A stretch of 24,671 bases of DNA from a virus, in the IMG/VR virus record IMGVR_UViG_3300025759_000662, positions 1-24,671 of that record, one strand, 5' to 3'. The translations under genes and the position numbers were made by a program. The notes below the pieces were generated by a model. That model made no database searches. It was not told the DNA's origin and was given only the letters and a program-made list of their open reading frames with translations. Shown piece after piece: positions 2,406-17,170 of this stretch (position 1 is its first letter; every line of letters starts with the position of its first letter).

Positions 2406-2609
2406 TCAACTATTTGCATTTATTTTTTCAAGTACAACTTTGATCCTTGAGGTTGCCGCCTGCTTCGAAATAGGTAAATCTTTCAACCTAACCCCATTGA
2501 CAAAGTAATCGATCATGGCACGTTTGTTGCTTTCAATCATCCTGGTTTTACTTAGAGCCAGTTCGATTGTCTCGATTGAATACGATCCACAGTGTTCAAG
2601 GTTACTCAT
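2406..2609 (-). CDS. Small helix-turn-helix protein, TrfB/KorA-like
   Basis: A 67-residue protein, last gene of the nucleotide-metabolism operon. Residues about 13-66 follow the layout of TrfB/KorA-type repressors: an N-terminal helix (SIETIELALSKTRM), a second helix (ESNKRAMIDYFVNG), then a helix-turn-helix (LKDLPISKQAATSRIKVVLEKI) in which SKQAATSRIKVVLEK would be the recognition helix. KorA-type proteins repress promoters by binding palindromes. ATG at 2609 overlaps the dCMP deaminase stop by one base (TGATG), with AGGAG about 8 bases upstream. It sits beside the palindrome-flanked promoter at 2353-2400. The family link is by pattern only, so moderate. Confidence 0.6.
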   Translation of the reverse strand: MSNLEHCGSYSIETIELALSKTRMIESNKRAMIDYFVNGVRLKDLPISKQAATSRIKVVLEKINANS

Positions 2610-3019
2610 CAAATATCTCCTATATCACAAAACTCAACAGCTATATTGAAACTTTCCAAAAGGGCAATGGGTTCCATATCCCTGTACCTTTCTCCGTAAA
2701 ACACCCTTTTGATCCCTGCCATAACAAGCATCTTAGCACAAGCCATACACGGACTTAGAGTTACGTAGACATCGCAATCTTTTGTTGCAACGCCGTTTTT
2801 TACACAGAACATAAGCGCGTTTTGTTCTGCATGCATAACTTCATCGATAGTTTGACCGTTGGATTCACAACAGTTATCCCTACCAGGCAATGTGCCGTTG
2901 TAACCGGTGCTAAGGATTCTACCTTCCTTTGCAATCACACAGCCAACCTTATTTCTTTCTGCATAAGATGCCTCGGCCCATAATCTGGCAGTCGCCATTA
3001 GCAATAGGGTCTTATCCAT
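2609..3019 (-). CDS. dCMP deaminase (ComEB-type)
   Basis: A 136-residue protein with the zinc-dependent cytidine/deoxycytidylate deaminase signatures: HAE (His63, Glu65 as proton shuttle) and PCMAC (Cys91, Cys94). A second Cys/His-rich stretch (RDNCCESNG, residues 47-55) is typical of phage dCMP deaminases with an extra zinc. It converts dCMP to dUMP. It overlaps the MazG-like gene by 8 bases and the HTH gene by 1, so all are co-translated. In T-even phages dCMP deaminase works beside a dCTPase and a dCMP hydroxymethylase to balance pyrimidine pools; the same set appears here. Confidence 0.9.
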   Translation of the reverse strand: MDKTLLLMATARLWAEASYAERNKVGCVIAKEGRILSTGYNGTLPGRDNCCESNGQTIDEVMHAEQNALMFCVKNGVATKDCDVYVTLSPCMACAKMLVMAGIKRVFYGERYRDMEPIALLESFNIAVEFCDIGDI

Positions 3020-3392
3020 AAATAATCGTCTCTATTTTTTTCTCTGGTGCGACCCAGTCGTCTGGCTTGGTTGCATCCGTTACACCGTCAAACCCTTCCC
3101 GGCCTTTTTTAATCCCCGGCTTCTTACTCATATTCGCTTCGTGGATTACATTGAATATTCGACGGATTTGAGAAACTTCAAGACCGGATCGGTACAAGCC
3201 TCCAATAGCAAAATAACATAAATCTATCAAAGCATCAGCGTCGTCTACCAGAGAAGTGGATTCTTCAAATTCTTGAATTTCTTCCTTTAAGGCCGCAATC
3301 AACCATGCTCGTTTATCGGCATCCAGTCGTTGTGGAGAACTAATATCCAGCCCTATGACTTCACGGTTAAATGTCCCAATTTCTTTAATCAT
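3012..3392 (-). CDS. MazG-like all-alpha NTP pyrophosphohydrolase
   Basis: A 126-residue, mostly helical protein with the metal-binding acidic pattern of the MazG/dUTPase-2 superfamily: EE..E at residues 37-41 (KEEIQEFEE) and a second helix with DDADALID (50-57). A C-terminal KPDDW..PE segment is frequent in phage members. Such enzymes release pyrophosphate from nucleoside triphosphates; T4 dCTPase/dUTPase is an analogous activity. Substrate cannot be read from sequence, but between a dCMP-type TS homologue and a dCMP deaminase a dCTP or dUTP substrate is likely. ATG at 3392 has AAGGA upstream and overlaps the amidotransferase stop by 8 bases; a start at 3446 would overlap far more. Confidence 0.78.
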   Translation of the reverse strand: MIKEIGTFNREVIGLDISSPQRLDADKRAWLIAALKEEIQEFEESTSLVDDADALIDLCYFAIGGLYRSGLEVSQIRRIFNVIHEANMSKKPGIKKGREGFDGVTDATKPDDWVAPEKKIETIIYG

Positions 3393-4704
3393 TTCTATAT
3401 TCCTTAAAAAGTTTAATGTTCGACTGAGTATTAGATAACAGATCATTCCGAATAGCTTTGGTTTTCAACGGAACTTTGGGTCTATCAATAATCTCTTTGG
3501 GTAACATGTGGCGATAAGCGTCTTTGAGATGCTTCTTATCTATCCGTTCGGCGTAAGGTAGTTCCATGGCGTACTTAACAATATATGGAGCCAAGAAGGG
3601 TGACCTAACCTCAATCGTGTGTCGCATCATTGTTCGGTCCAATCTTGGCAGATGATAATAAGGTAGTTCCTGGAAGACGTCAGACATCTGACTGTCATAT
3701 TCTTTGGCCCTTCTATAACCTCCAAAAAGCTCGTCTGCGCCATCCCCGGTCAGCACCATGTGATAACCTTCTTTGGCGATGGACTTAGCTAAGGCGAGCT
3801 GTGGTTTGACCGAGCCAAGGTCTACAGGTGATTGATGAACAGTAACCGCCTCGCTATCAGTTACCTCATCCAATGTGATATTGGTTCGGTTTGTTGTCAT
3901 CATATCGGCGTAATCGCTTTCATCATTGTCCACATGGAAGACTTTGATCTGATCCCCGTATCCCAACTCTTGAGTGACGGCATAAATGATGGAACTGTCC
4001 AAACCCCCCGATAATAGCAAAGATTGGGGTCGTGCTACGTGCATTCTTTTAGAGGTTGCTTGGGATATACCTGTGGAAATTACGTACGGCGCACTTATTT
4101 TAGACCAATCCCAGTAGCTAGATATGACCCCGTCGATATAAACTGAGCCAGCTGGCATTTGCTTGATATTTTTATAAGGAGTATTACCTGTTGGGTCGTA
4201 TCCCCACTTTTGGATGTTGCTAAAGAAGATAGGGTCGTATTCAGATGGAGCAAGACCCACTAAACAGTCAATCTCCGAGGCTACTACATTTAAGTCTGTA
4301 CGATAATAGAGTGGCTTCTGAGACAAGTAGTCAGTAATGGCAATCAGTTTTTTCTCACGTATAAAAGCCACATTCCAAAAGCCGTCGAACTTATGGAACA
4401 GTTCCAAGATCTTATCCAATGGATTATCGACGATCAAATTCCTGATCATCCTTACGTCGCCTGTCGAAGTGGGATCTAGTTCATGATAGTTAAAAATCTC
4501 ACCTGTGAAAGCTACGAAATTTAATGGTTGATGATATTCATACGGATCAAGAGAACACATTGGTAATGAAACATGACCGACGTGATAATGGCCATTAGTT
4601 TCAAAACATGGTTCAACCGTTCCCCGGTATTGCATTTTATATAGAGCTAATTCGATAGCCCCCGAACTAACCCTTTTATCGTTTGAAGCAATTAGACCAC
4701 ACAT
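3385..4704 (-). CDS. Asparagine synthetase B-like glutamine amidotransferase
   Basis: A 439-residue two-domain protein. Residues 1-200 form a class II glutaminase: catalytic Cys2 (MCGL), YRG at 26-28, FTGEIFNY at 66-73 (NGEIYN in most AsnB) and DYLSQKPLYY at 125-134. Residues about 220-439 form an ATP-dependent synthetase: PP-loop SGGLDSS (232-238), TGDGADELFGGYRR (319-332), RLDRTMMRHTIEVRSPFL and a late RPK. The family adenylates a carboxylate and transfers ammonia from glutamine. It is shorter than E. coli AsnB (about 554 residues) but no key motif is lost. It overlaps the dNMP kinase by 13 bases and the MazG gene by 8. The substrate may be aspartate or, given the neighbours, a modified nucleotide; that is open. 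Confidence 0.85.
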   Translation of the reverse strand: MCGLIASNDKRVSSGAIELALYKMQYRGTVEPCFETNGHYHVGHVSLPMCSLDPYEYHQPLNFVAFTGEIFNYHELDPTSTGDVRMIRNLIVDNPLDKILELFHKFDGFWNVAFIREKKLIAITDYLSQKPLYYRTDLNVVASEIDCLVGLAPSEYDPIFFSNIQKWGYDPTGNTPYKNIKQMPAGSVYIDGVISSYWDWSKISAPYVISTGISQATSKRMHVARPQSLLLSGGLDSSIIYAVTQELGYGDQIKVFHVDNDESDYADMMTTNRTNITLDEVTDSEAVTVHQSPVDLGSVKPQLALAKSIAKEGYHMVLTGDGADELFGGYRRAKEYDSQMSDVFQELPYYHLPRLDRTMMRHTIEVRSPFLAPYIVKYAMELPYAERIDKKHLKDAYRHMLPKEIIDRPKVPLKTKAIRNDLLSNTQSNIKLFKEYRND

Positions 4705-5216
4705 GTAATACCCCGGATGTAATCTAACAACTCTCTGTAAGCGCCTTTATGTTTCCAGTTGTACCGGATATATCCAGTGAACTTCACGGAGTTTGAGCCC
4801 ATGAACCCCTCATACATGTTAATGATTTTAGTATGGTTACGCATCACGGCATCGAGATGATCTTTTGATTTGTGGGCTTTAAATCCAACGTCAACATCCA
4901 TTTTGTTGATACCCGTGGGAGCACAATAAACTACGATCTGCGGTAAGTCCAAATAGTGATTGAACTTATTTAGATTAAGGCGGACCGGTCGATCTAAAGC
5001 CCTAGAGTAAATTAGTTCGGAAATCCACGTGACACGGTCGTGAATATGAAGCTCCTTTCTTTCTGCATGATATTCTTGTTCCTCGGTAACGAAGTCAAAA
5101 ACCTCCTGACTCGGTAACATCGGCGATCGATGCAAAGTTGCTCCAAGATCTTTTTCTAACTGCAAGCTCAATGTGCTTTTGCCTGACCCATCTGGTCCTT
5201 CTAGAACGATGATCAT
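4692..5216 (-). CDS. Deoxynucleoside monophosphate (thymidylate-like) kinase
   Basis: A 174-residue P-loop kinase with Walker A GPDGSGKST at residues 7-15 and a DR motif (HDRVTWISELIYSRAL, about residues 60-75) placed as in thymidylate kinases. The C-terminal part is less typical. It should phosphorylate a deoxynucleoside monophosphate for phage DNA synthesis; by context this could be the modified dCMP made by the upstream enzyme, as T4 gp1 does for hydroxymethyl-dCMP. The start overlaps the upstream stop as TAATG, with a very strong GGAGG 6 bases before it. The kinase assignment is solid; the exact substrate is inferred. Confidence 0.8.
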   Translation of the reverse strand: MIIVLEGPDGSGKSTLSLQLEKDLGATLHRSPMLPSQEVFDFVTEEQEYHAERKELHIHDRVTWISELIYSRALDRPVRLNLNKFNHYLDLPQIVVYCAPTGINKMDVDVGFKAHKSKDHLDAVMRNHTKIINMYEGFMGSNSVKFTGYIRYNWKHKGAYRELLDYIRGITCVV

Positions 5217-5956
5217 TAGTTTCCTCCAGTTAACTTTTTAAGGGTATATTTGTCATTTTCAAAACAGTGGAACGAGGTACAAGAAAAATTCAATGTGCCT
5301 GGGGTCGCATTTATCCCGGCTGCTTCAATTAAAAATAAAGTCATCCTGTTGGCAAAGAAGATGTCATTGTGGAAGTGCCGGATTGCATCGCACGATCGCA
5401 TAGGATAAAAGCAATGCATCTTTTCATTTCTAACTATGAACTGCCAACCTAGTGTACAAGGAACTCTCTCGCCTTCTATAGCAGCATTGAGATCCTCTGG
5501 AAAAAAGATAGGGATATAACACTGTCTTGTCGTTGGGTCCTTTTTTAGAAGAGTAATAGCATCCGAAAGATCGGCAGTATTAAATCTGATCCCATTAGGC
5601 ATTAAGGTTTTAGGCCAAAGACGTTCGGGATAAGAATGCGAAAATTTGTTATCGGTAAGAAAGTCCTCATTACCTTTTAACCAAATTTTATGGCTAGGCG
5701 GGGGATTAACGGGTTCCCCGGCGATACGTTCTTGGAAGTGATCCTCGGCCCACGGTAAAAACGGATTAGTTTCTTTTTTTAAAGAATCGAGGCCATCAGT
5801 CATAGGCATCATTAGGTTTAAGTTCAATATCTCGAGAAACATGGGCGGACACTTGACCCCTTGCCAAGAGTTAGTTTCAACTACATTGCCGTATTTCAAA
5901 AGATGGAATCTAGCTTTATTAATGCCAGATCTTATATCGATGGCTCGAATCTGCAT
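5216..5956 (-). CDS. Thymidylate-synthase homologue with dCMP-type active site (probable dCMP (hydroxy)methylase)
   Basis: A 246-residue member of the thymidylate synthase fold. The C-terminal half carries the family signature: catalytic Cys167 (VPCTLGWQF), then MRSCDA with Arg187, Ser188 and Asp190 at C+20, C+21 and C+23, exactly as in E. coli TS (C146, R166, S167, D169). At C+31, where TS has Asn177 for dUMP selection, this protein has Asp198 (HFHNDIFF). T4 dCMP hydroxymethylase has Asp at the same offset (C148, D179). The His/Tyr site near the end reads FHCFEND, so Tyr is replaced by Phe. ATG at 5956 has AAGGA upstream; the open frame to 6007 runs over the promoter. Methyl versus hydroxymethyl product cannot be told. 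Confidence 0.8.
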   Translation of the reverse strand: MQIRAIDIRSGINKARFHLLKYGNVVETNSWQGVKCPPMFLEILNLNLMMPMTDGLDSLKKETNPFLPWAEDHFQERIAGEPVNPPPSHKIWLKGNEDFLTDNKFSHSYPERLWPKTLMPNGIRFNTADLSDAITLLKKDPTTRQCYIPIFFPEDLNAAIEGERVPCTLGWQFIVRNEKMHCFYPMRSCDAIRHFHNDIFFANRMTLFLIEAAGINATPGTLNFSCTSFHCFENDKYTLKKLTGGN

Positions 5957-5988
5957 TGGTTTTCCTTTTAATTGATTTTGATATGGGA

Positions 5989-6017
5989 ATAGTAAGCACT
6001 TAATCAACTAATGTAAA
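5989..6017 (-). promoter_or_regulatory. Leftward sigma70-like promoter for the nucleotide/modification operon
   Basis: On the minus strand: -35 TTTACA (6012-6017), 17-base spacer, -10 TACTAT (5989-5994), 33 bases before the ATG at 5956. The -35 block AAGTGTTTAC is repeated as AAGTGCTTAC 23 bases downstream, running into the -10. This direct repeat spaced two helical turns could be an operator pair. Confidence 0.7.
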
Positions 6018-7660: not shown

Positions 7661-7859
7661 TGATTATACCTACTCCCCGACGTTTACCTGTTTTGCGCCT
7701 TTCCCTCTGTTTTTTTGTTTCATTATGGTGGAAGTCGTCGTTTATTCGAATGGGTAGAACTTCAATTGGGCCATGTTCCTCAATCCATTTTTCTACGTCG
7801 GCTTTCAGTTGTTCTCTAACCTTAGCCTTTTCACCAATTTTGTCTTGCGAGGGTCTCAT
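7644..7859 (-). CDS. Small highly charged protein of unknown function
   Basis: A 71-residue protein. The first half is a predicted charged helix (GEKAKVREQLKADVEKWIEEHGP). A short IEVLPIRIND segment follows, then a very basic stretch (ETKKQRERRKTGKRRG) that could bind nucleic acid. ATG at 7859 overlaps the polymerase stop as ATGA and has AAGGAG upstream, so the gene is almost certainly translated. It sits between the polymerase and VRR-NUC genes, suggesting a replication accessory role. No family recognised. Confidence 0.65.
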   Translation of the reverse strand: MRPSQDKIGEKAKVREQLKADVEKWIEEHGPIEVLPIRINDDFHHNETKKQRERRKTGKRRGVGIIIVKNT

Positions 7860-9589
7860 GATAAAATACTCCTTGCTTCTTTAATGTACCTGTCGTAATC
7901 AATGTTGTTCGGTGTGGCGTCGGGTAAACTCATAAGCGGGGTCGACCCGTCGCTAGTAGGCACTTTATTACCATTGCTACTATAAACGATTTTCTCCCCG
8001 TCGGTTGACCAATAAAATCTAACCACTTTACCGAGTTTCTCACCCTTCCATTCTGCTCCACCTTTTACAGTGCGAACTGTTAGAAATTCTCGTATGTCCC
8101 CACACTCACGTATTGTTTTTTCCACTGGCGTACCGTCGGACAGCCTTTTAACAACCGCATCGTAAATGATGGGTGTAGCAGGATTCTTGGTTAATCCCGG
8201 TCTGGCAAAGACCCCCTTTGTCTTAACACTCCCGTCCGGTTTTATTGCTACATAGTTGTTGACGTCCCTACAGTGTAAAGACTTATAGGGGGTGTGTTCA
8301 AGTTCAAAGCTCGTTGTTTTTTCCCATTGTTCCAAAAGGTGTTCGTAGCCTGGATCGTGAACAACGCCATCGGTATTAGCCGAATAAACTCTACAACCAG
8401 CTTTTTCCAAGGATTCGATAAGCATTAGCAAGGCAAGCTGACCCGTTAAAGTTACTTCCAACATCCCCGCAGGGTGATACATGCATGACCAACGGTTGGA
8501 CAATTTACCAAAGGAGCTGTTAATTATGAGTTTTAGCGAATTGGATCGCATCTTTTCACCGGCTTTTTTAGCCAAGATTCTTTGATTAAAAACCGACGTA
8601 AAAAATGGTAAAAAGTTACGTCCAAGACTCGGGGGAGATATGTCGTTATTGATCATGATCGAGGGATAATAACTAACCACGTCGCTGTCAACAACGTTTT
8701 CGACATGTAGTTCTTTTTCTTGGGAATGAAGCCCGCCGAGGCCACATTTATAAGTTGTTTGACCTATCTCAAAAGGCTTTATTAACTTGGTTGGCAGTTT
8801 TACATAGCCGCTTTTATCCACAGTGAACCTATGTTTATTAACGAAATCCAGAATCTCGTTAAGATGAGACGAATCAAACTTGATGTAGTCCGGGGCAGTG
8901 TAACCAACGTTCCTAGGCGGCGTATCCTTATTTGCCTTGACTTTCAATTTACTTTGAACGATCGCCTCGGCTATTTGTGCACCACCTTTTGATCGCAGAT
9001 CTAATCCGTATTCTGCAGACATGTATTTCCGTAGCTCCATATCTTCGAGCAACTGGTTATACAAATCAATAGTTGTATCCAGATCGTTTTCACAATACTC
9101 CGAAACGTGATCCATTTGCTCGTCAGTTAATTCTATGCTTGGATCGTATGGAAGATCTTGCAGTTTTTTGGAATGGAGTCTACCGCCGTAAAGTTTCAAG
9201 GAAGTAAAAACGCCCGGGGCAACTTGCATCAAATCGAAGGTATTAAAGCGCGGATCTAATTGTAAATCCAGCTTTTTTAATGCTTGCCATTGATGCAGAT
9301 CACTTTTAACGATCCGATCTGACAAAGCTTTTAATTTTTCACAATTAAGGCCTTCCAAAGCAGCCAAGATCATTGGGATGTCATACCCGTTGCTGTTATA
9401 GCCAAAAGTGGTCCGCGTGCACATCGCCGTACGTAGTTTCTTTTGTTGTTCTAAGGTTAACCCCTTGGAAGATTCACGTACGTCGACCTTTAACAGCTTG
9501 TTATTAGCGGGATTCTTAAAAGCAACAAGGAAGTAATTGGGATAACACTCTACATCGAAGACTACTGGGTGGGGGTTGCGATCTTTCAT
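7856..9589 (-). CDS. Family B DNA polymerase with 3'-5' exonuclease
   Basis: A 577-residue polymerase. Exonuclease motifs: FDVE (Asp12, Glu14), FGYNSNGYD (62-70) and YCEND (165-169). Polymerase motifs: A, DVVSYYPS (303-310); B, KLIINSSFG (353-361); C, SANTDGVV (403-410). Motif C has Asn in place of the first Asp of the usual DTD; the second, catalytic Asp is kept. At under 600 residues it is a compact phage form without an obvious protein-primed TPR insertion. ATG at 9589 has GAAGGA upstream and is preferred to TTG at 9613, which lies inside the terminator that precedes the gene. It should replicate the phage genome with the PrimPol at 12845. Confidence 0.9.
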   Translation of the reverse strand: MKDRNPHPVVFDVECYPNYFLVAFKNPANNKLLKVDVRESSKGLTLEQQKKLRTAMCTRTTFGYNSNGYDIPMILAALEGLNCEKLKALSDRIVKSDLHQWQALKKLDLQLDPRFNTFDLMQVAPGVFTSLKLYGGRLHSKKLQDLPYDPSIELTDEQMDHVSEYCENDLDTTIDLYNQLLEDMELRKYMSAEYGLDLRSKGGAQIAEAIVQSKLKVKANKDTPPRNVGYTAPDYIKFDSSHLNEILDFVNKHRFTVDKSGYVKLPTKLIKPFEIGQTTYKCGLGGLHSQEKELHVENVVDSDVVSYYPSIMINNDISPPSLGRNFLPFFTSVFNQRILAKKAGEKMRSNSLKLIINSSFGKLSNRWSCMYHPAGMLEVTLTGQLALLMLIESLEKAGCRVYSANTDGVVHDPGYEHLLEQWEKTTSFELEHTPYKSLHCRDVNNYVAIKPDGSVKTKGVFARPGLTKNPATPIIYDAVVKRLSDGTPVEKTIRECGDIREFLTVRTVKGGAEWKGEKLGKVVRFYWSTDGEKIVYSSNGNKVPTSDGSTPLMSLPDATPNNIDYDRYIKEARSILS

Positions 9590-9610
9590 TTTTATCCTTC
9601 TATTTTGTGA

Positions 9611-9650
9611 CAAAAAAGGCAGTAACCCTTTTCGGGAATACTGCCTTTAT
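9611..9650. terminator. Strong rho-independent terminator between ssDNA-binding and polymerase genes
   Basis: AAAGGCAGTA (9615-9624) pairs perfectly with TACTGCCTTT (9639-9648). The 14-base loop can itself form CCC-GAAA-GGG. Read leftward the stem is followed by a T run, so it should end transcripts leaving the ssDNA-binding protein gene. Read rightward the T run is short. Confidence 0.8.
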
Positions 9651-9655
9651 TTGGT

Positions 9656-10159
9656 TTAGAGTTCTTCTAGTTCGTCGAACTCTTCGGTTACGTCGGTTGG
9701 ACCAGAACCAAATGGTTCGCCATCTTTGACAAACTGTATACCGTATACGTTGCCGTTGACACGCTTACCATAAGAGTTGTTCTGGACCCAAACATCCACG
9801 ATTGCGTTGACGTAACAACCTGCGTAGATTTTATCATCTTCCTCTACAATAGGAGTCTTGTCTCGGTCAATCACCGTTGGACGTTTGTTACTGGATGCTT
9901 TAAAAGAAACGCAACCTTCATAACCGTCGTATTCAGACTCATCGCCATTGCGGAGACAACGTTTATCTGACGGGATTTTAATGTTACCTTCTTTTATAGC
10001 AGTTTCGATCATTTCCTCAATCTGTTTAATCTGAGCCGCGTCGGTTTCTTTATTGAGAAGAAACGTGGCTTCATACTTAGTTTCAACATCGTTGAACTTA
10101 GCTTTTTTAAACAAAGAAGGAAAAGAAAGACGGACGTTTTTAAGATGGAGTTTAGCCAT
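9656..10159 (-). CDS. Enc34-type single-stranded DNA-binding protein (DUF2815)
   Basis: A 167-residue protein. It begins KLHLKNVRLSFPSLFKKAKF, followed by the ATFLLNKETD strand, typical of the DUF2815 family whose phage Enc34 member binds ssDNA through an OB fold. The YAGCYVNAIVDVWVQNN segment is another family feature. The C-terminus is acidic (EEFDELEEL), as in many SSBs that recruit partners. ATG at 10159 has AAGGTG upstream; an in-frame ATG at 10168 is also possible. The gene has its own promoter just upstream and a strong terminator 6 bases after the stop, consistent with high, separate expression. Confidence 0.88.
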   Translation of the reverse strand: MAKLHLKNVRLSFPSLFKKAKFNDVETKYEATFLLNKETDAAQIKQIEEMIETAIKEGNIKIPSDKRCLRNGDESEYDGYEGCVSFKASSNKRPTVIDRDKTPIVEEDDKIYAGCYVNAIVDVWVQNNSYGKRVNGNVYGIQFVKDGEPFGSGPTDVTEEFDELEEL

Positions 10160-10215
10160 TGTATTCACCTTTTAGATTCGGATTTAAGTTTTTGTGTCCA
10201 TTATTGGACAAGCTC

Positions 10216-12844: not shown

Positions 12845-15001
12845 GTGGCAAAAGTTTTAGAAAAAGCCCCGTTTAAATTTAATCCAAATGGTATACCCCC
12901 GGAATTAAAAGAAGCTAAGCAATGGGTAGTTTGGTCTCTTTTCGAATCCGATAAGAACAAACCTACCAAGAACCCGTGTTATGTTACCAAAAATGGCACA
13001 GTCAAACAAGCACGTTGGGCAGAACCTGAGAATCAGTATTCCTTTGATCAAGCCTTAGAAATTTATGAAAGCAACCCGTCTGTTCATGGTCTTGGCTTCG
13101 TCCTTACAAAAGAAGATCCTTACGTTTTTATTGACATAGATAATGTAGGCCTTAATGATCCACGGTCTGCTTACGCTTCTATTGATAGCTGGTCAGAATT
13201 TAGTCAATCTGGCAAAGGCCTACATATCATGGTTAAGGGTAAGATCGACGGTGCGTTCATTAGCCAGTCCAGTGGCATTGAGATTTACTCTCATGGTCGC
13301 TTTATTGCTATGACGGGTACTATCACGGCCGATCTGTGTATGGAGATCACCGAGAGGCAAAATATTATTGAAGAGTTGTTGATCACCTATTCGGATGATG
13401 AGCAACCATCCAGTCTTAAAGAGGAGCGTAAAGCGTTCAGTCTGCCGGAAGTTGTTAATGAGGGTTCACGTGATGACACGATGTATCGTTATTGCTGCAA
13501 GCTGTTTAGCGATGGACTAACTTATCAAGAAGTTGTCTCCCGGGTTATCCGGATCAACAACGAACGCTTCGTCCCACCGCTTGATGAAGAAGTAGTTAAA
13601 GCCAAGGTGGAAGGCGCTAGTAAGTTTATGGAGAAAGTCGACCGTCAATTAAGGGCGGAGATTTTTTCTGCCCTTGAAGAGTCTTCTTATCGTGACCTTG
13701 CTTATAAGTACGTCTTTCTTCGGTCGACCAACCGGTTTATGAACATTGAGACCAAGACAGAAATGTCGATCCAGGCTTTTAACCAGTCGATGCCAAACAT
13801 ACCGGACGAAGGTATTGATGCCAAGGGCAAACCTAAGCTCGAGATGGTCCTGCCTTCTGAATTCATCAAGCGTCAAGAGGATTACAAGGTTCTTGATGGT
13901 GTGTTCTGGCGGCCTACTCCGTTTGGTAAAGAGATAGATCCAGAGTTCCTTTATATGCAAGAGCTCGGTACTAGCTATATTAATACTTGGCGGGGATTTG
14001 CTTTAACGCCTATCCGGGGTAACGTCAAACCGTGGTTAAGACAGTTGAGACGGCTAATTCCTGAGGCTAAGGATCGTAAGGTCTTTATCCAACGGATGGC
14101 GATAGACGTGCAGATGCCTCACGAGAAGGTGAATTGGCAGATCCTTTTGCACGGCGGCTATGGTGTTGGTAAGGACAGCATCATCAAACCGTTCCAAAGG
14201 ATATTCGGTTCCGCCTTTAAGTCTTTAGATGGATCCAGAATAGGCAGTGGCTTTGATGATGAACTGATCGGATCCAAGGTCTTACTGATCAATGAAGTGG
14301 ATAACGCTGGTCGTAAACCCGAAGAAAACTCGTGGATCAAGCGTAATGCTGCATCTGAAGGCGCATCCATGATCATGCTCAATAAAAAGATGGCCGGCAA
14401 AGTGCTACAGGCCAACGTGTCCTCTCTTTACCTTCTTAGTAATGAACCAGACTGTCTTAAGTTTACTACAGATGAACGCCGTTTCTATGTGATAGCCGGC
14501 TCGCACAAGCCCATGACACCTAAGGAAACGGATGATTACTATGGCAAATGGTTTGACAAAGGTGGTGCCAACGCTCTTTTCGACTTTTTGATGAGGGTGA
14601 ACATTACTATCAGTCCTGCTATGGTTCCGGAGCGGACAGAAGCCTTCTATAACATGATTGAAGACACCCAATCTGAGTGGGAGATTATCCTGAGTGACTA
14701 TTTATCCATGGGTAAAGGTCACTTTGCCTATGAACTTGTTTGTCCTATTCATGTCTCGGAGCATGAGCTTGTAGGGATTAGATATAAACCCTCTATTCAA
14801 ACCATCAAGAAATGGATGATGAAAAGGGGTTTTCATCAATATAAAGAACAGCCACAAGCTAAGATTGATGGAAAGATTGAGAAAAAGTCAAGGACGTGGT
14901 TAGCAAACAAAGCACTTTGTCCTGATTATCACACGCTGTCAGGAATAGACCTTTATCACAAGATTGACGAAATTGAGTCTAAGGGCTTTATAGACTTATA
15001 A
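12845..15001 (+). CDS. NrS-1-type primase-polymerase/helicase
   Basis: A 718-residue protein, the same length as the NrS-1 phage polymerase. Residues about 20-180 form an archaeo-eukaryotic primase (PrimPol) domain: FIDIDNV (Asp97, Asp99), SGKGLHIMV (122-130) and the late HGRFIAMTG. Residues about 400-600 form a superfamily 3-like helicase with Walker A GGYGVGKDS (about 436-444) and Walker B VLLINEVDN (about 478). Such proteins make primers de novo, extend them and unwind DNA. The start is GTG with AAGGAG 7-8 bases upstream. No separate DnaG-type primase or DnaB helicase is present in the window, so this is the likely initiator. A terminator follows 25 bases after the stop. Confidence 0.9.
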   Translation: MAKVLEKAPFKFNPNGIPPELKEAKQWVVWSLFESDKNKPTKNPCYVTKNGTVKQARWAEPENQYSFDQALEIYESNPSVHGLGFVLTKEDPYVFIDIDNVGLNDPRSAYASIDSWSEFSQSGKGLHIMVKGKIDGAFISQSSGIEIYSHGRFIAMTGTITADLCMEITERQNIIEELLITYSDDEQPSSLKEERKAFSLPEVVNEGSRDDTMYRYCCKLFSDGLTYQEVVSRVIRINNERFVPPLDEEVVKAKVEGASKFMEKVDRQLRAEIFSALEESSYRDLAYKYVFLRSTNRFMNIETKTEMSIQAFNQSMPNIPDEGIDAKGKPKLEMVLPSEFIKRQEDYKVLDGVFWRPTPFGKEIDPEFLYMQELGTSYINTWRGFALTPIRGNVKPWLRQLRRLIPEAKDRKVFIQRMAIDVQMPHEKVNWQILLHGGYGVGKDSIIKPFQRIFGSAFKSLDGSRIGSGFDDELIGSKVLLINEVDNAGRKPEENSWIKRNAASEGASMIMLNKKMAGKVLQANVSSLYLLSNEPDCLKFTTDERRFYVIAGSHKPMTPKETDDYYGKWFDKGGANALFDFLMRVNITISPAMVPERTEAFYNMIEDTQSEWEIILSDYLSMGKGHFAYELVCPIHVSEHELVGIRYKPSIQTIKKWMMKRGFHQYKEQPQAKIDGKIEKKSRTWLANKALCPDYHTLSGIDLYHKIDEIESKGFIDL

Positions 15002-15026
15002 ATTTCAACATTCTTTATACTTTTTT

Positions 15027-15048
15027 GGGCATATTAATGTCCTTTTTT
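15027..15048 (+). terminator. Rho-independent terminator after PrimPol gene
   Basis: GGGCAT (15027-15032), a 4-base loop ATTA and ATGTCC (15037-15042) form a 6-pair stem with one G-U pair, followed by six T's. Placed 25 bases after the PrimPol stop. Confidence 0.65.
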
Positions 15049-15084
15049 ATGCTTGTTTATATCAGATAAGCTTTTTTCTTCGTT

Positions 15085-15265
15085 TTGAGTACCTTTCTTA
15101 ATTTTGAGTACTTTTGAGTACTTGAGTACTTTTGAGTACAATTTAAAGAGAAAAGTACTCAAAAGTAAAAAATAAGTGAAAGTTGAGTACTGTTTTGAGT
15201 ATCACCTAAGTTTATGATTTTAATAGTTTATTATAAGTAAAGTACTCAAGTACTCAAGTACTCAA
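15085..15265. repeat. Array of ten TTGAGTAC repeats, candidate origin or operator cluster
   Basis: Exact copies on the + strand start at 15085, 15104, 15114, 15122, 15132 and 15183. Exact copies on the - strand (GTACTCAA) start at 15155, 15242, 15250 and 15258, the last three in perfect 8-bp tandem. A TTGAGTAT variant lies at 15195. The left cluster alternates 10- and 8-base spacing. The surrounding 600 bases are very AT-rich and non-coding, and lie directly after the replication initiator gene. This is the usual look of an iteron-type replication origin or a cooperative operator array. Confidence 0.7.
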
Positions 15266-15381
15266 TATTTTTTTATTTTATATAGAGAACACAAGTAAAC
15301 GTCTATTTTCTCTCTTTTTACCCCCCTTTTTTACGCCTTTTCGTGTGTTTTCCTCTATACCGCCCTTGGATGCAAAAAAAA

Positions 15382-15426
15382 TTGAGTATCTGAATACTGA
15401 ATTGAGTATTGATCAATTTTTGATCA
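15382..15426. repeat. Secondary repeat patch with TTGAGTAT and GATCA palindromes
   Basis: TTGAGTAT, a one-base variant of the main repeat, occurs at 15382 and 15402. AATACT (15393-15398) and AGTATT (15405-15410) form a small inverted repeat. It is followed by the palindromes TTGATCAA (15409-15416) and TGATCA (15421-15426). Together they look like an extension of the array about 115 bases upstream, perhaps a second-affinity binding patch. Confidence 0.45.
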
Positions 15427-15516
15427 GTTTTATTAAAAATCCCTGGATTCGAGGGGAGGTTAAACTTTAGTCAAATTTGGTATAAGATATTGGACCTCAA
15501 AAAATAATTAGAACAA

Positions 15517-15525
15517 AGTGTTTAC
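15517..15525 (+). promoter_or_regulatory. Orphan AGTGTTTAC element upstream of terminase genes
   Basis: AGTGTTTAC is identical to the -35/operator block of the leftward early promoters but points rightward, with no acceptable -10 at 17 bases (CGATTT). A TATACT lies 28 bases after TTTACA. It may be a regulator-binding site rather than a promoter, which would let the early regulator act on the late genes. Confidence 0.35.
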
Positions 15526-15624
15526 AATTTAAAGATAAGGGGGCGATTTTCCTCTATACTAATCCGGGTATTAAATTTTTGCTGAATTTAGTATATGATG
15601 AATAGTGTATAGAGGATTTTTGCT

Positions 15625-15921
15625 GTGGCCGATAATACCTTAGTTTTTGAAAGAACCCTTTTAAAGATGAAGAAGCTCGACAATGAGCTTCAAGCTGAAA
15701 ACGTCAGAGCCAGATTGAACCCTGGAGGTTACATTGAAAACCTTCAAAGCCTTATCGACGAATCGAAGAAGTGTGAAATAGAAGAGTTACCCAGATTAAA
15801 GTTTCAGGCTGACATCTATCTTGCCATGTTGCGTAAATGCTTACCGGATCTTAAAGCTGTTGAACTGAGCACAAGAGGTGCTTTGTCTATCCGCATTGCT
15901 AAGGACGAAGAAAATCTTTAG
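15625..15921 (+). CDS. Putative terminase small subunit
   Basis: A 98-residue, strongly helical charged protein (e.g. FERTLLKMKKLDNELQAENVRARL; LPRLKFQADIYLAMLRKCLPDL). No domain is recognised with certainty. It is the first gene of the packaging block and overlaps the large terminase by 44 bases, the classic position of the DNA-recognition small subunit. The start is GTG with AGAGGA 8 bases upstream. The iteron-rich region before it could also contain the packaging site. Assignment is mainly by position. Confidence 0.55.
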   Translation: MADNTLVFERTLLKMKKLDNELQAENVRARLNPGGYIENLQSLIDESKKCEIEELPRLKFQADIYLAMLRKCLPDLKAVELSTRGALSIRIAKDEENL

Positions 15922-17170
15922 TCGAACAGAAAGGCAAAAGGAAGCAACCAAGGTCCTGTCTTCTAGTGACGAAGCAGGATTATTCGGTGGATCAAGATCA
16001 GGTAAGACCTTCATCATTATTCGCTCGATAGTTTTGAGAGCATGTAAAACGCGTTCTAGGCACCTCATAACTAGGTTCAGGTTTAACCATGTGAAAACCT
16101 CTATCTGGTACGATACGTTCCCTAAAGTCATGTCTATGTGCTTCCCTGAGCTGGAGGTCGCATACAACAAGTCAGATTGGTTTGTCCAATTCCCAAATGG
16201 ATCTGAAATCTGGTTTGGAGGGATTGATGATAAGGAACGTGTTGAAAAGATTCTTGGTAACGAATACAGTACTATTTATATCAACGAGACAAGTCAAGTT
16301 GGCTATGAAGCAGTATTGATGCTGCAAACCCGACTTGCAGAAAACAGTGGATTAGACCTTCGCTTCTGGTATGACTTTAATCCCCCAACCAAAAAGCATT
16401 GGACCTACATTTACTTTGTAGAAAAGAAAGACCCTGTAACCTTAAAACCTCTTGGTCATGATGTACCTTATTTGGTAATGAACCCAAGCGATAACGTCGT
16501 CAACTTGCCGCCTACTTATCTAAGCCGCTTAGAAAGGTTACCTCAAAAGCAAAGAGATAGATTCCTTTTTGGTAAATTCACACTGGACGTTGATGGAGCG
16601 CTATGGGATTATGAATCCATTATGGCAGCACAGACCAGAGAGCCAAAAGGGGAAAAGATTAGAACTGTAATCGCCATTGATCCAGCGGTTACCAACAATG
16701 AAAACTCAGATGAGACAGGCATAATTGCCGCGTCAGCTTATAATGATAACGGGTTTGTAGTTGAAGGGGATTATACCTGTAAGTCGTCAACACAAACTTG
16801 GGCCATTAGATCAATCAATGCTTATGAAAAACACGAAGCAGATGCCATGGTTGTTGAGACTAACCAAGGTGGCGATCTGGTTGAAAACGTCTTACGCCTT
16901 AATGGATTCGAGGGAAGGATAATAAAGGTTCATGCTAAAAAAGGAAAAGCCCTAAGAGCCGAACCGGTATTAGCCCTATATGAACAAGGCAGGGTTACCC
17001 ATAATGAAGATCTACAAGACCTAGAGTCTGAGATGATGGAATGGGTGCCGTTTAATACTAAAGACTCACCGAACAGAATTGATGCCATGGTTTATGCCAT
17101 AACAGAACTTAGCAATGATAACCAGAGTCTATCTGATCTTTTGAAACTATCAATGAGCGAACAGCTATGA
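15878..17170 (+). CDS. Terminase large subunit
   Basis: Up to 430 residues. Packaging ATPase: Walker A GGSRSGKT (residues 37-44) and Walker B TIYINE (132-137, Glu catalytic). The C-terminal RNase H-like nuclease has TVIAIDPAVTN (about residue 262), VVETNQGGD and the late NRIDAMVYA. It translocates DNA into the prohead and cuts it. The start is unclear: GTG at 15878 and TTG at 15896 lack good ribosome-binding sites, while AAGGA (15901-15905) lies 8 bases before an ATC codon at 15914. The protein family usually begins close to the RTERQKEA segment, so a short N-terminus is likely. The stop overlaps the portal start as ATGA. Confidence 0.92.
   Translation: MLCLSALLRTKKIFSRTERQKEATKVLSSSDEAGLFGGSRSGKTFIIIRSIVLRACKTRSRHLITRFRFNHVKTSIWYDTFPKVMSMCFPELEVAYNKSDWFVQFPNGSEIWFGGIDDKERVEKILGNEYSTIYINETSQVGYEAVLMLQTRLAENSGLDLRFWYDFNPPTKKHWTYIYFVEKKDPVTLKPLGHDVPYLVMNPSDNVVNLPPTYLSRLERLPQKQRDRFLFGKFTLDVDGALWDYESIMAAQTREPKGEKIRTVIAIDPAVTNNENSDETGIIAASAYNDNGFVVEGDYTCKSSTQTWAIRSINAYEKHEADAMVVETNQGGDLVENVLRLNGFEGRIIKVHAKKGKALRAEPVLALYEQGRVTHNEDLQDLESEMMEWVPFNTKDSPNRIDAMVYAITELSNDNQSLSDLLKLSMSEQL

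Follow-up and report, generated by a model that had tools for sequence, protein, structure and literature searches.

Lambda-type O-protein iterons have an AT-rich neighbour, and in Streptococcus phage Sfi21 an origin reportedly lies near the primase gene; for most non-model tailed phages, to our knowledge, no replication origin is known. The origins of SaPIs and PICIs are found directly 3' of the rep gene, and PICI origins always comprise two iteron sets that flank an AT-rich region (PMC6092414). SaPI Rep helicases recognise the short-iteron origin directly downstream of their own gene through a C-terminal domain, apparently as two hexamers, and the isolated C-terminal domain of Cch2 binds its repeats (PMC7581432). 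An origin region located 3' of a PrimPol gene is also already known from pRN1 (PMC4234260).

The locus analysed here carries a dense array of the 8-bp word TTGAGTAC downstream of a primase-helicase gene. Judging from sequence and gene order, this array is likely a replication origin of the iteron type, recognised by the primase-helicase that the phage itself encodes. SaPIs and PICIs already provide examples of this kind, an iteron origin on the 3' side of the gene for a primase-helicase initiator; what is new is the TTGAGTAC word and its presence in this phage. We found no published description of such phage arrays in a search that was thin on subscription journals, and a prior description is possible.

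A two-orientation array downstream of a primase-helicase gene

The window (the whole stretch of DNA that was analysed) is an entire IMG/VR virus record of 24,671 bp, which is not known to be a complete genome. Since it encodes its own TerL, portal and further ORFs of the head-gene region, it belongs to a phage and not to a PICI satellite. The features of the region are as follows.

12845–15001, plus strand: primase-helicase of 718 aa, the proposed initiator, with an NrS-1-type AEP PrimPol N-terminus, PriCT_1 and a DUF5906/D5-like helicase
15027–15042, plus strand: terminator-like hairpin between primase stop and array, GGGCATATTAATGTCC then TTTTTT
15085–15139, plus strand: forward iteron set, five exact TTGAGTAC at spacings of 19, 10, 8 and 10
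15155–15162, minus strand: lone reverse TTGAGTAC, exact
15183–15202, plus strand: forward TTGAGTAC and the variant TTGAGTAT (at 15195), by word match
15203–15241, no strand: AT-rich stretch (82% AT), by composition a candidate unwinding element between forward and reverse sets
15242–15265, minus strand: reverse iteron set, three exact TTGAGTAC in perfect 8-bp tandem
15266–15281, no strand: 16 bp of A/T only, adjoining the reverse set
15382–15409, plus strand: two outlying TTGAGTAT variants, by word match
15625–15921, plus strand: ORF of 98 aa, at the small-terminase position
15878–17170, plus strand: TerL, matching TerL of loci L023, L024 and L025

In a PDB sequence search, residues 22–160 of the primase-helicase match the NrS-1 primase structures 6a9w, 6k9a and 7rr3 (E ~1e-13; 8e-14 for 6a9w), and the N-terminus also matches 7ola (E 6.5e-10), which is titled only "DNA primase" in the database and which we take to be the structure of SaPI5 Rep. 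The domain matches to PriCT_1 (E 6.6e-5) and DUF5906 (E 2e-4, below the curated cut-off) are both weak, and the match to the DNA primase family phrog_1829 has an E-value of 6e-50. The first-pass annotation had called this gene an NrS-1-type PrimPol/helicase, and the 6a9w and 7ola matches, together with the weak PriCT_1 and DUF5906 hits, bear this out. The C-terminus gave no meaningful match in the PDB sequence search, and an AlphaFold model of the PrimPol, built from an input of only three sequences, has a pLDDT of 30. The window also encodes a DNA polymerase (7856–9613, phrog_1252) and an Enc34-type single-stranded DNA-binding protein (9656–10168). On the minus strand, at 2609–6007, adjacent genes for a dCMP deaminase, a MazG-like hydrolase, an asparagine-synthase-like protein (assigned by eye, phrog_16728), a thymidylate-kinase-like protein and a thymidylate synthase homologue are found, a group that may make up a pathway for modifying DNA bases.

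When the whole record was scanned, all ten exact copies of TTGAGTAC fell within 15085–15265 and none elsewhere. Six are on the plus strand (starting at 15085, 15104, 15114, 15122, 15132 and 15183) and four on the minus strand (15155, 15242, 15250 and 15258), the last three being those in perfect tandem at 15242–15265; three TTGAGTAT variants start at 15195, 15382 and 15402. This recount returned the same copy numbers, span and strands as had been reported before, including the tandem and the variants up to 15409. All 13 sites lie in the 623-bp gap (15002–15624, 71% AT) that separates the primase-helicase stop from the terminase genes. The array had been placed in AT-rich non-coding DNA directly after the primase gene; the composition holds, and "directly" needs a small correction, as the first copy begins 84 bp past the stop with the hairpin in between.

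The array is far beyond chance: the top 8-mer of the gap occurs 10 times without overlap, whereas in 5000 dinucleotide-preserving shuffles of the same 623 bp the top count averaged 2.4 and reached 4 at most. One-mismatch matches to TTGAGTAC across the whole window number 22, where 17.9 are expected; they show no excess, and the signal therefore consists of the exact word crowded into a single place. In an alignment of the 13 sites, seven of the eight positions are invariant and conservation stops at the flanks, which puts the repeat unit at about 8 bp. Start-to-start spacings are 19, 10, 8, 10, 23, 28, 12, 47, 8, 8, 124 and 20. Broadly, the order is forward set, AT-rich DNA, reverse set; the split between orientations is imperfect, since the middle of the array mixes two forward sites with a reverse one. 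Slippage of a neutral or selfish short repeat might produce the 8-bp tandem runs that do occur here, but the two orientations and variable spacing speak against it, as does the return of the same layout, each time with another word, at one position in the genomes of different phages (see below), and we consider this explanation of the array extremely unlikely.

Several other signals were sought in the window. DnaA-box-like matches are present, with none inside the 623-bp gap, and neither Rfam families nor tRNAs were detected in the window. Single-strand DNA folding of the array region gives a z of -4.95, as expected from inverted copies, and is thus no separate evidence. GC skew, proposed earlier as a check for an origin at the array, proved uninformative; its minimum falls near 12 kb, where transcription diverges, and not at the array. 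A second repeat, TTTTCCTCTATAC in two copies (15348–15360 and 15547–15559) with its inverse GTATAGAGGA (15607–15616) just ahead of the ORF at 15625, is possibly a regulatory or packaging element separate from the array.

Arrays beside primase genes in other phages

A TerL search retrieved L023, L024 and L025 (76%), L026 (74%), L028 (73%) and others. The closest relative, L025, is syntenic with the window (TerL 76%, SSB 76%, polymerase 63%, DUF2800 48%) and has a different primase of 762 aa (Prim-Pol, PriCT_2, DUF5906), with 22% identity over the helicase. Its primase–TerS gap holds forward copies of GGTTACA, an 89% AT stretch and reverse copies. The expectation that close relatives would carry an array at the same place is thereby confirmed for the slot, which in L025 is filled with another word. 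No relative with the identical word TTGAGTAC was found in IMG/VR, and an IMG/VR scan for tandem TTGAGTACTTGAGTAC gave 12 loci, none of them with an array. L026 and L028, with other primases that do not adjoin TerS, have no array before TerS, and neither does mEp021 (L126), which combines a homologous TerL with other replication genes. Searches for PrimPol relatives by exact peptide patterns in viral contigs, for polymerase relatives, and for TerL relatives in bacterial genomes returned none, and an SSB search only two L025-type contigs.

In a wider TerL-based sample of 80 loci, more bidirectional arrays were seen upstream of TerS, the word differing from locus to locus: L061 (AAGTCCTTA), L079 (GACTCAAG), L081 (CCCTCCTA), L065 (CCCATCCC), L084 (GCCCGTA), L045 (AAGTAGACAA), L044 and L096. 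In L065 the array is directly 3' of a DUF5906 primase-helicase gene; in L044, L061, L079, L081, L084 and L096, several of which are fragmentary contigs, an adjacent primase is not demonstrated. Because its loci were selected through the terminase, this sample cannot tell an origin from a packaging site.

Annotated phages picked by primase similarity carry arrays at the primase stop in Burkholderia AH2 (AGGTCCGAA), Nostoc Nsp-JY18 and Microcystis Mel-JY33 (both ACCCGGGTCC), Moraxella Mcat4 (CCCTGCAC), Serratia JS26 (CCTACGCAAT), Achromobacter AXY1 (AACTAGGATA) and Stenotrophomonas Silvanus (ACCTGTAACC); the array of Serratia Smarc5 (AGGTAACA) begins 467 bp past the primase stop. What follows the array differs from phage to phage. 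In Silvanus the next gene encodes an endolysin, in Nsp-JY18 TerS is 2.1 kb further on, beyond leftward genes, and has no array of its own, in Mcat4 the terminase is 2 kb from the array, and in Smarc5 the annotated cos overhang lies about 220 bp beyond the last copy. L025 and Silvanus both use GGTTACA, and the best match within the set to the C-terminus of the L025 protein is that of Silvanus; a shared word as the mark of a shared initiator C-terminus is only suggestive, since phages with other words also have similar C-termini.

Among 26 primase loci, a set that includes the window, L025 and L065 (chosen for their arrays) and the near-duplicates L129 and L144, 12 of 27 bidirectional clusters were near the primase stop, against 5.8% expected from the share of sequence, and every cluster with at least six copies was at the primase stop. 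A terminase-blind set was then defined as 80 IMG/VR loci retrieved by primase alignment, 78 of them with a stop, the near zone being -200 to +600 bp around that stop. An array was near the stop in 50 of the 78, and arrays with at least six copies were near in 35 cases and far in four, the near zone making up 7.9% of the sequence. The primase alignment was made from array-bearing phages, and the array fraction therefore cannot be extended to all primases of this type; the positional test, which works inside each locus, does not suffer from this bias. Grouping at 70% identity left 35 groups (near zone about 7% of the sequence), with an array of at least four copies near the stop in 16 and of at least five in 10. 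Arrays of at least five copies were near in 10 and far in four (P about 4e-9), those of at least six near in eight and far in two (P 3e-8), and those of four copies near in six and far in 14, a weaker near excess. Roughly half of the primase groups lack an array; the Jedunavirus type and ZP6 are among these. The loci with an array near the primase stop include L173, a 59,407-bp record that is presumably Salmonella phage Chi.

These data bear on the idea that the words are small-terminase binding sites, cosB- or pac-like, adjoining a cut site. The array is indeed upstream of the terminase genes in the window, L025, L045, L044, L061, L079, L081 and L084, and several Casjensviridae records have it between primase and genome end. 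However, arrays stay by the primase where no terminase is adjacent, as in Silvanus, Nsp-JY18, Mcat4 and L198 (small ORFs and PhoH downstream of the array), and a terminase-like gene is about 1.4–2.3 kb away in L189 (assigned by eye), L169 and L197. As the array sits by the primase stop where the terminase is elsewhere, it follows the primase gene and does not travel with the terminase. The exception is L045, whose array at 4296–4526 (equivalent to L121 11135–11423) lies just before TerS and 7.6 kb past the DUF5906 primase, a layout that fits packaging better and may point to an origin able to move or to some arrays serving the terminase. Homologous TerL genes beside other replication genes lack the array, and the Smarc5 cos is separate from its array. 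For the 98-aa ORF at the TerS position of the window, neither Pfam nor PHROGs gives a TerS family, and BLAST against the TerS of L025 yields nothing meaningful. The packaging site that had been offered as an alternative is weakened by the primase-side arrays away from terminases and by the Smarc5 cos, and we regard it as very unlikely.

Regulator sites that control the late (terminase/head) transcript or the primase were the other alternative considered. The array of the window is upstream of the late gene block, and two promoter-like matches overlap its copies (15257–15230, minus strand; 15114–15142, plus strand), but two such matches are no excess over the 2.9 seen in shuffles. In other phages the array remains on the 3' side of the primase regardless of the next genes, be they lysis genes, PhoH or leftward genes, and ten near-contiguous sites in two orientations around AT-rich DNA would be unusual for a repressor. 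An operator array thus appears improbable; autoregulation by the initiator would not conflict with an origin.

A few observations were made alongside. Pseudomonas phage Kakheti25 (L229) has an AT-rich non-coding gap at 8015–8357, 1.2 kb past the primase, with GTTATA in both orientations; it is possible that this is an origin of similar kind away from the primase gene. One-direction runs of ACCTTCG occur in L143 (1237–1612, 16 copies, inside an annotated RNA-binding protein gene) and in L059 (516–696, 11 copies). In L198 (9382–11109) a PhoH-like gene is split by LAGLIDADG/Hom_end homing-endonuclease domains, probably an intein.

A proposed origin and its relation to known systems

The earlier suggestion of an iteron origin used by the PrimPol/helicase is supported, at the level of sequence comparison, by the L025 array in the same place and by primase-side arrays in many phages. 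By analogy with SaPI Rep and Cch2, the primase-helicase would bind the copies, probably via a C-terminal DNA-binding domain, and two oppositely facing rings would assemble on the forward and reverse sets. The AT-rich DNA between the sets would then melt, the primase-helicase would load itself and prime both strands so that two forks start, and the phage DNA polymerase and the Enc34-type SSB would take over extension. We infer the binder, the melting and the fork direction from these analogous systems. A further reading, which we think rather unlikely, is that the melted words are template recognition sequences for primer-free DNA synthesis by the PrimPol, as TTTGGTTA is for the NrS-1 polymerase; if so, the orientations of the word would set the two fork directions, and this would be a multi-start primer-free phage origin.

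If the array is an iteron origin, a bidirectional array of a phage-specific word of 7–10 bp just 3' of an AEP/DUF5906 primase-helicase gene would predict the origin in many phages, a rule that would extend to the record we assign to phage Chi. The data suggest that many tailed phages use a SaPI/PICI-like origin, which would link satellite and phage replication, and the matched pairs of initiator and word would provide material for how such helicases change specificity.

Among known systems, lambda-type O-protein origins also have iterons bound by an initiator (PMC11447400), but these are four longer units inside the replication gene and are served by a separate helicase. In pRN1, the gene for the PrimPol-helicase ORF904 is likewise followed at once by a required origin region (PMC4234260); differently from the array, that region is a 100-nt stem-loop without iterons. 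The NrS-1 polymerase shares the AEP PrimPol type and the use of a phage-specific 8-base word, TTTGGTTA (PMC8718748, PMC7102993), which differs in having only two copies, located mid-genome and read on a single-stranded template; in the window, TTTGGTTA has three scattered copies, with no enrichment and none in the array. The SCCmec helicase Cch2 and its AAGTG repeats are similar in combining a D5/primase-C-terminal-type helicase with short repeats downstream of the gene (PMC7581432), whereas only three repeats are reported there and Cch2 is a separate helicase that is not fused to an AEP primase.

The SaPI/PICI origin, with its pri-rep-ori order, resembles the locus in three respects: the array is 3' of the primase/initiator-helicase gene, with its first copy 84 bp past the stop (PMC6092414, PMC7581432); it consists of multiple short repeats, here ten exact copies and three variants; and two sets flank AT-rich DNA, although here they are not perfectly pure in orientation. 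Unlike SaPIs and PICIs, the replicon here is a tailed phage that encodes its head and terminase proteins itself, and its word TTGAGTAC is new.
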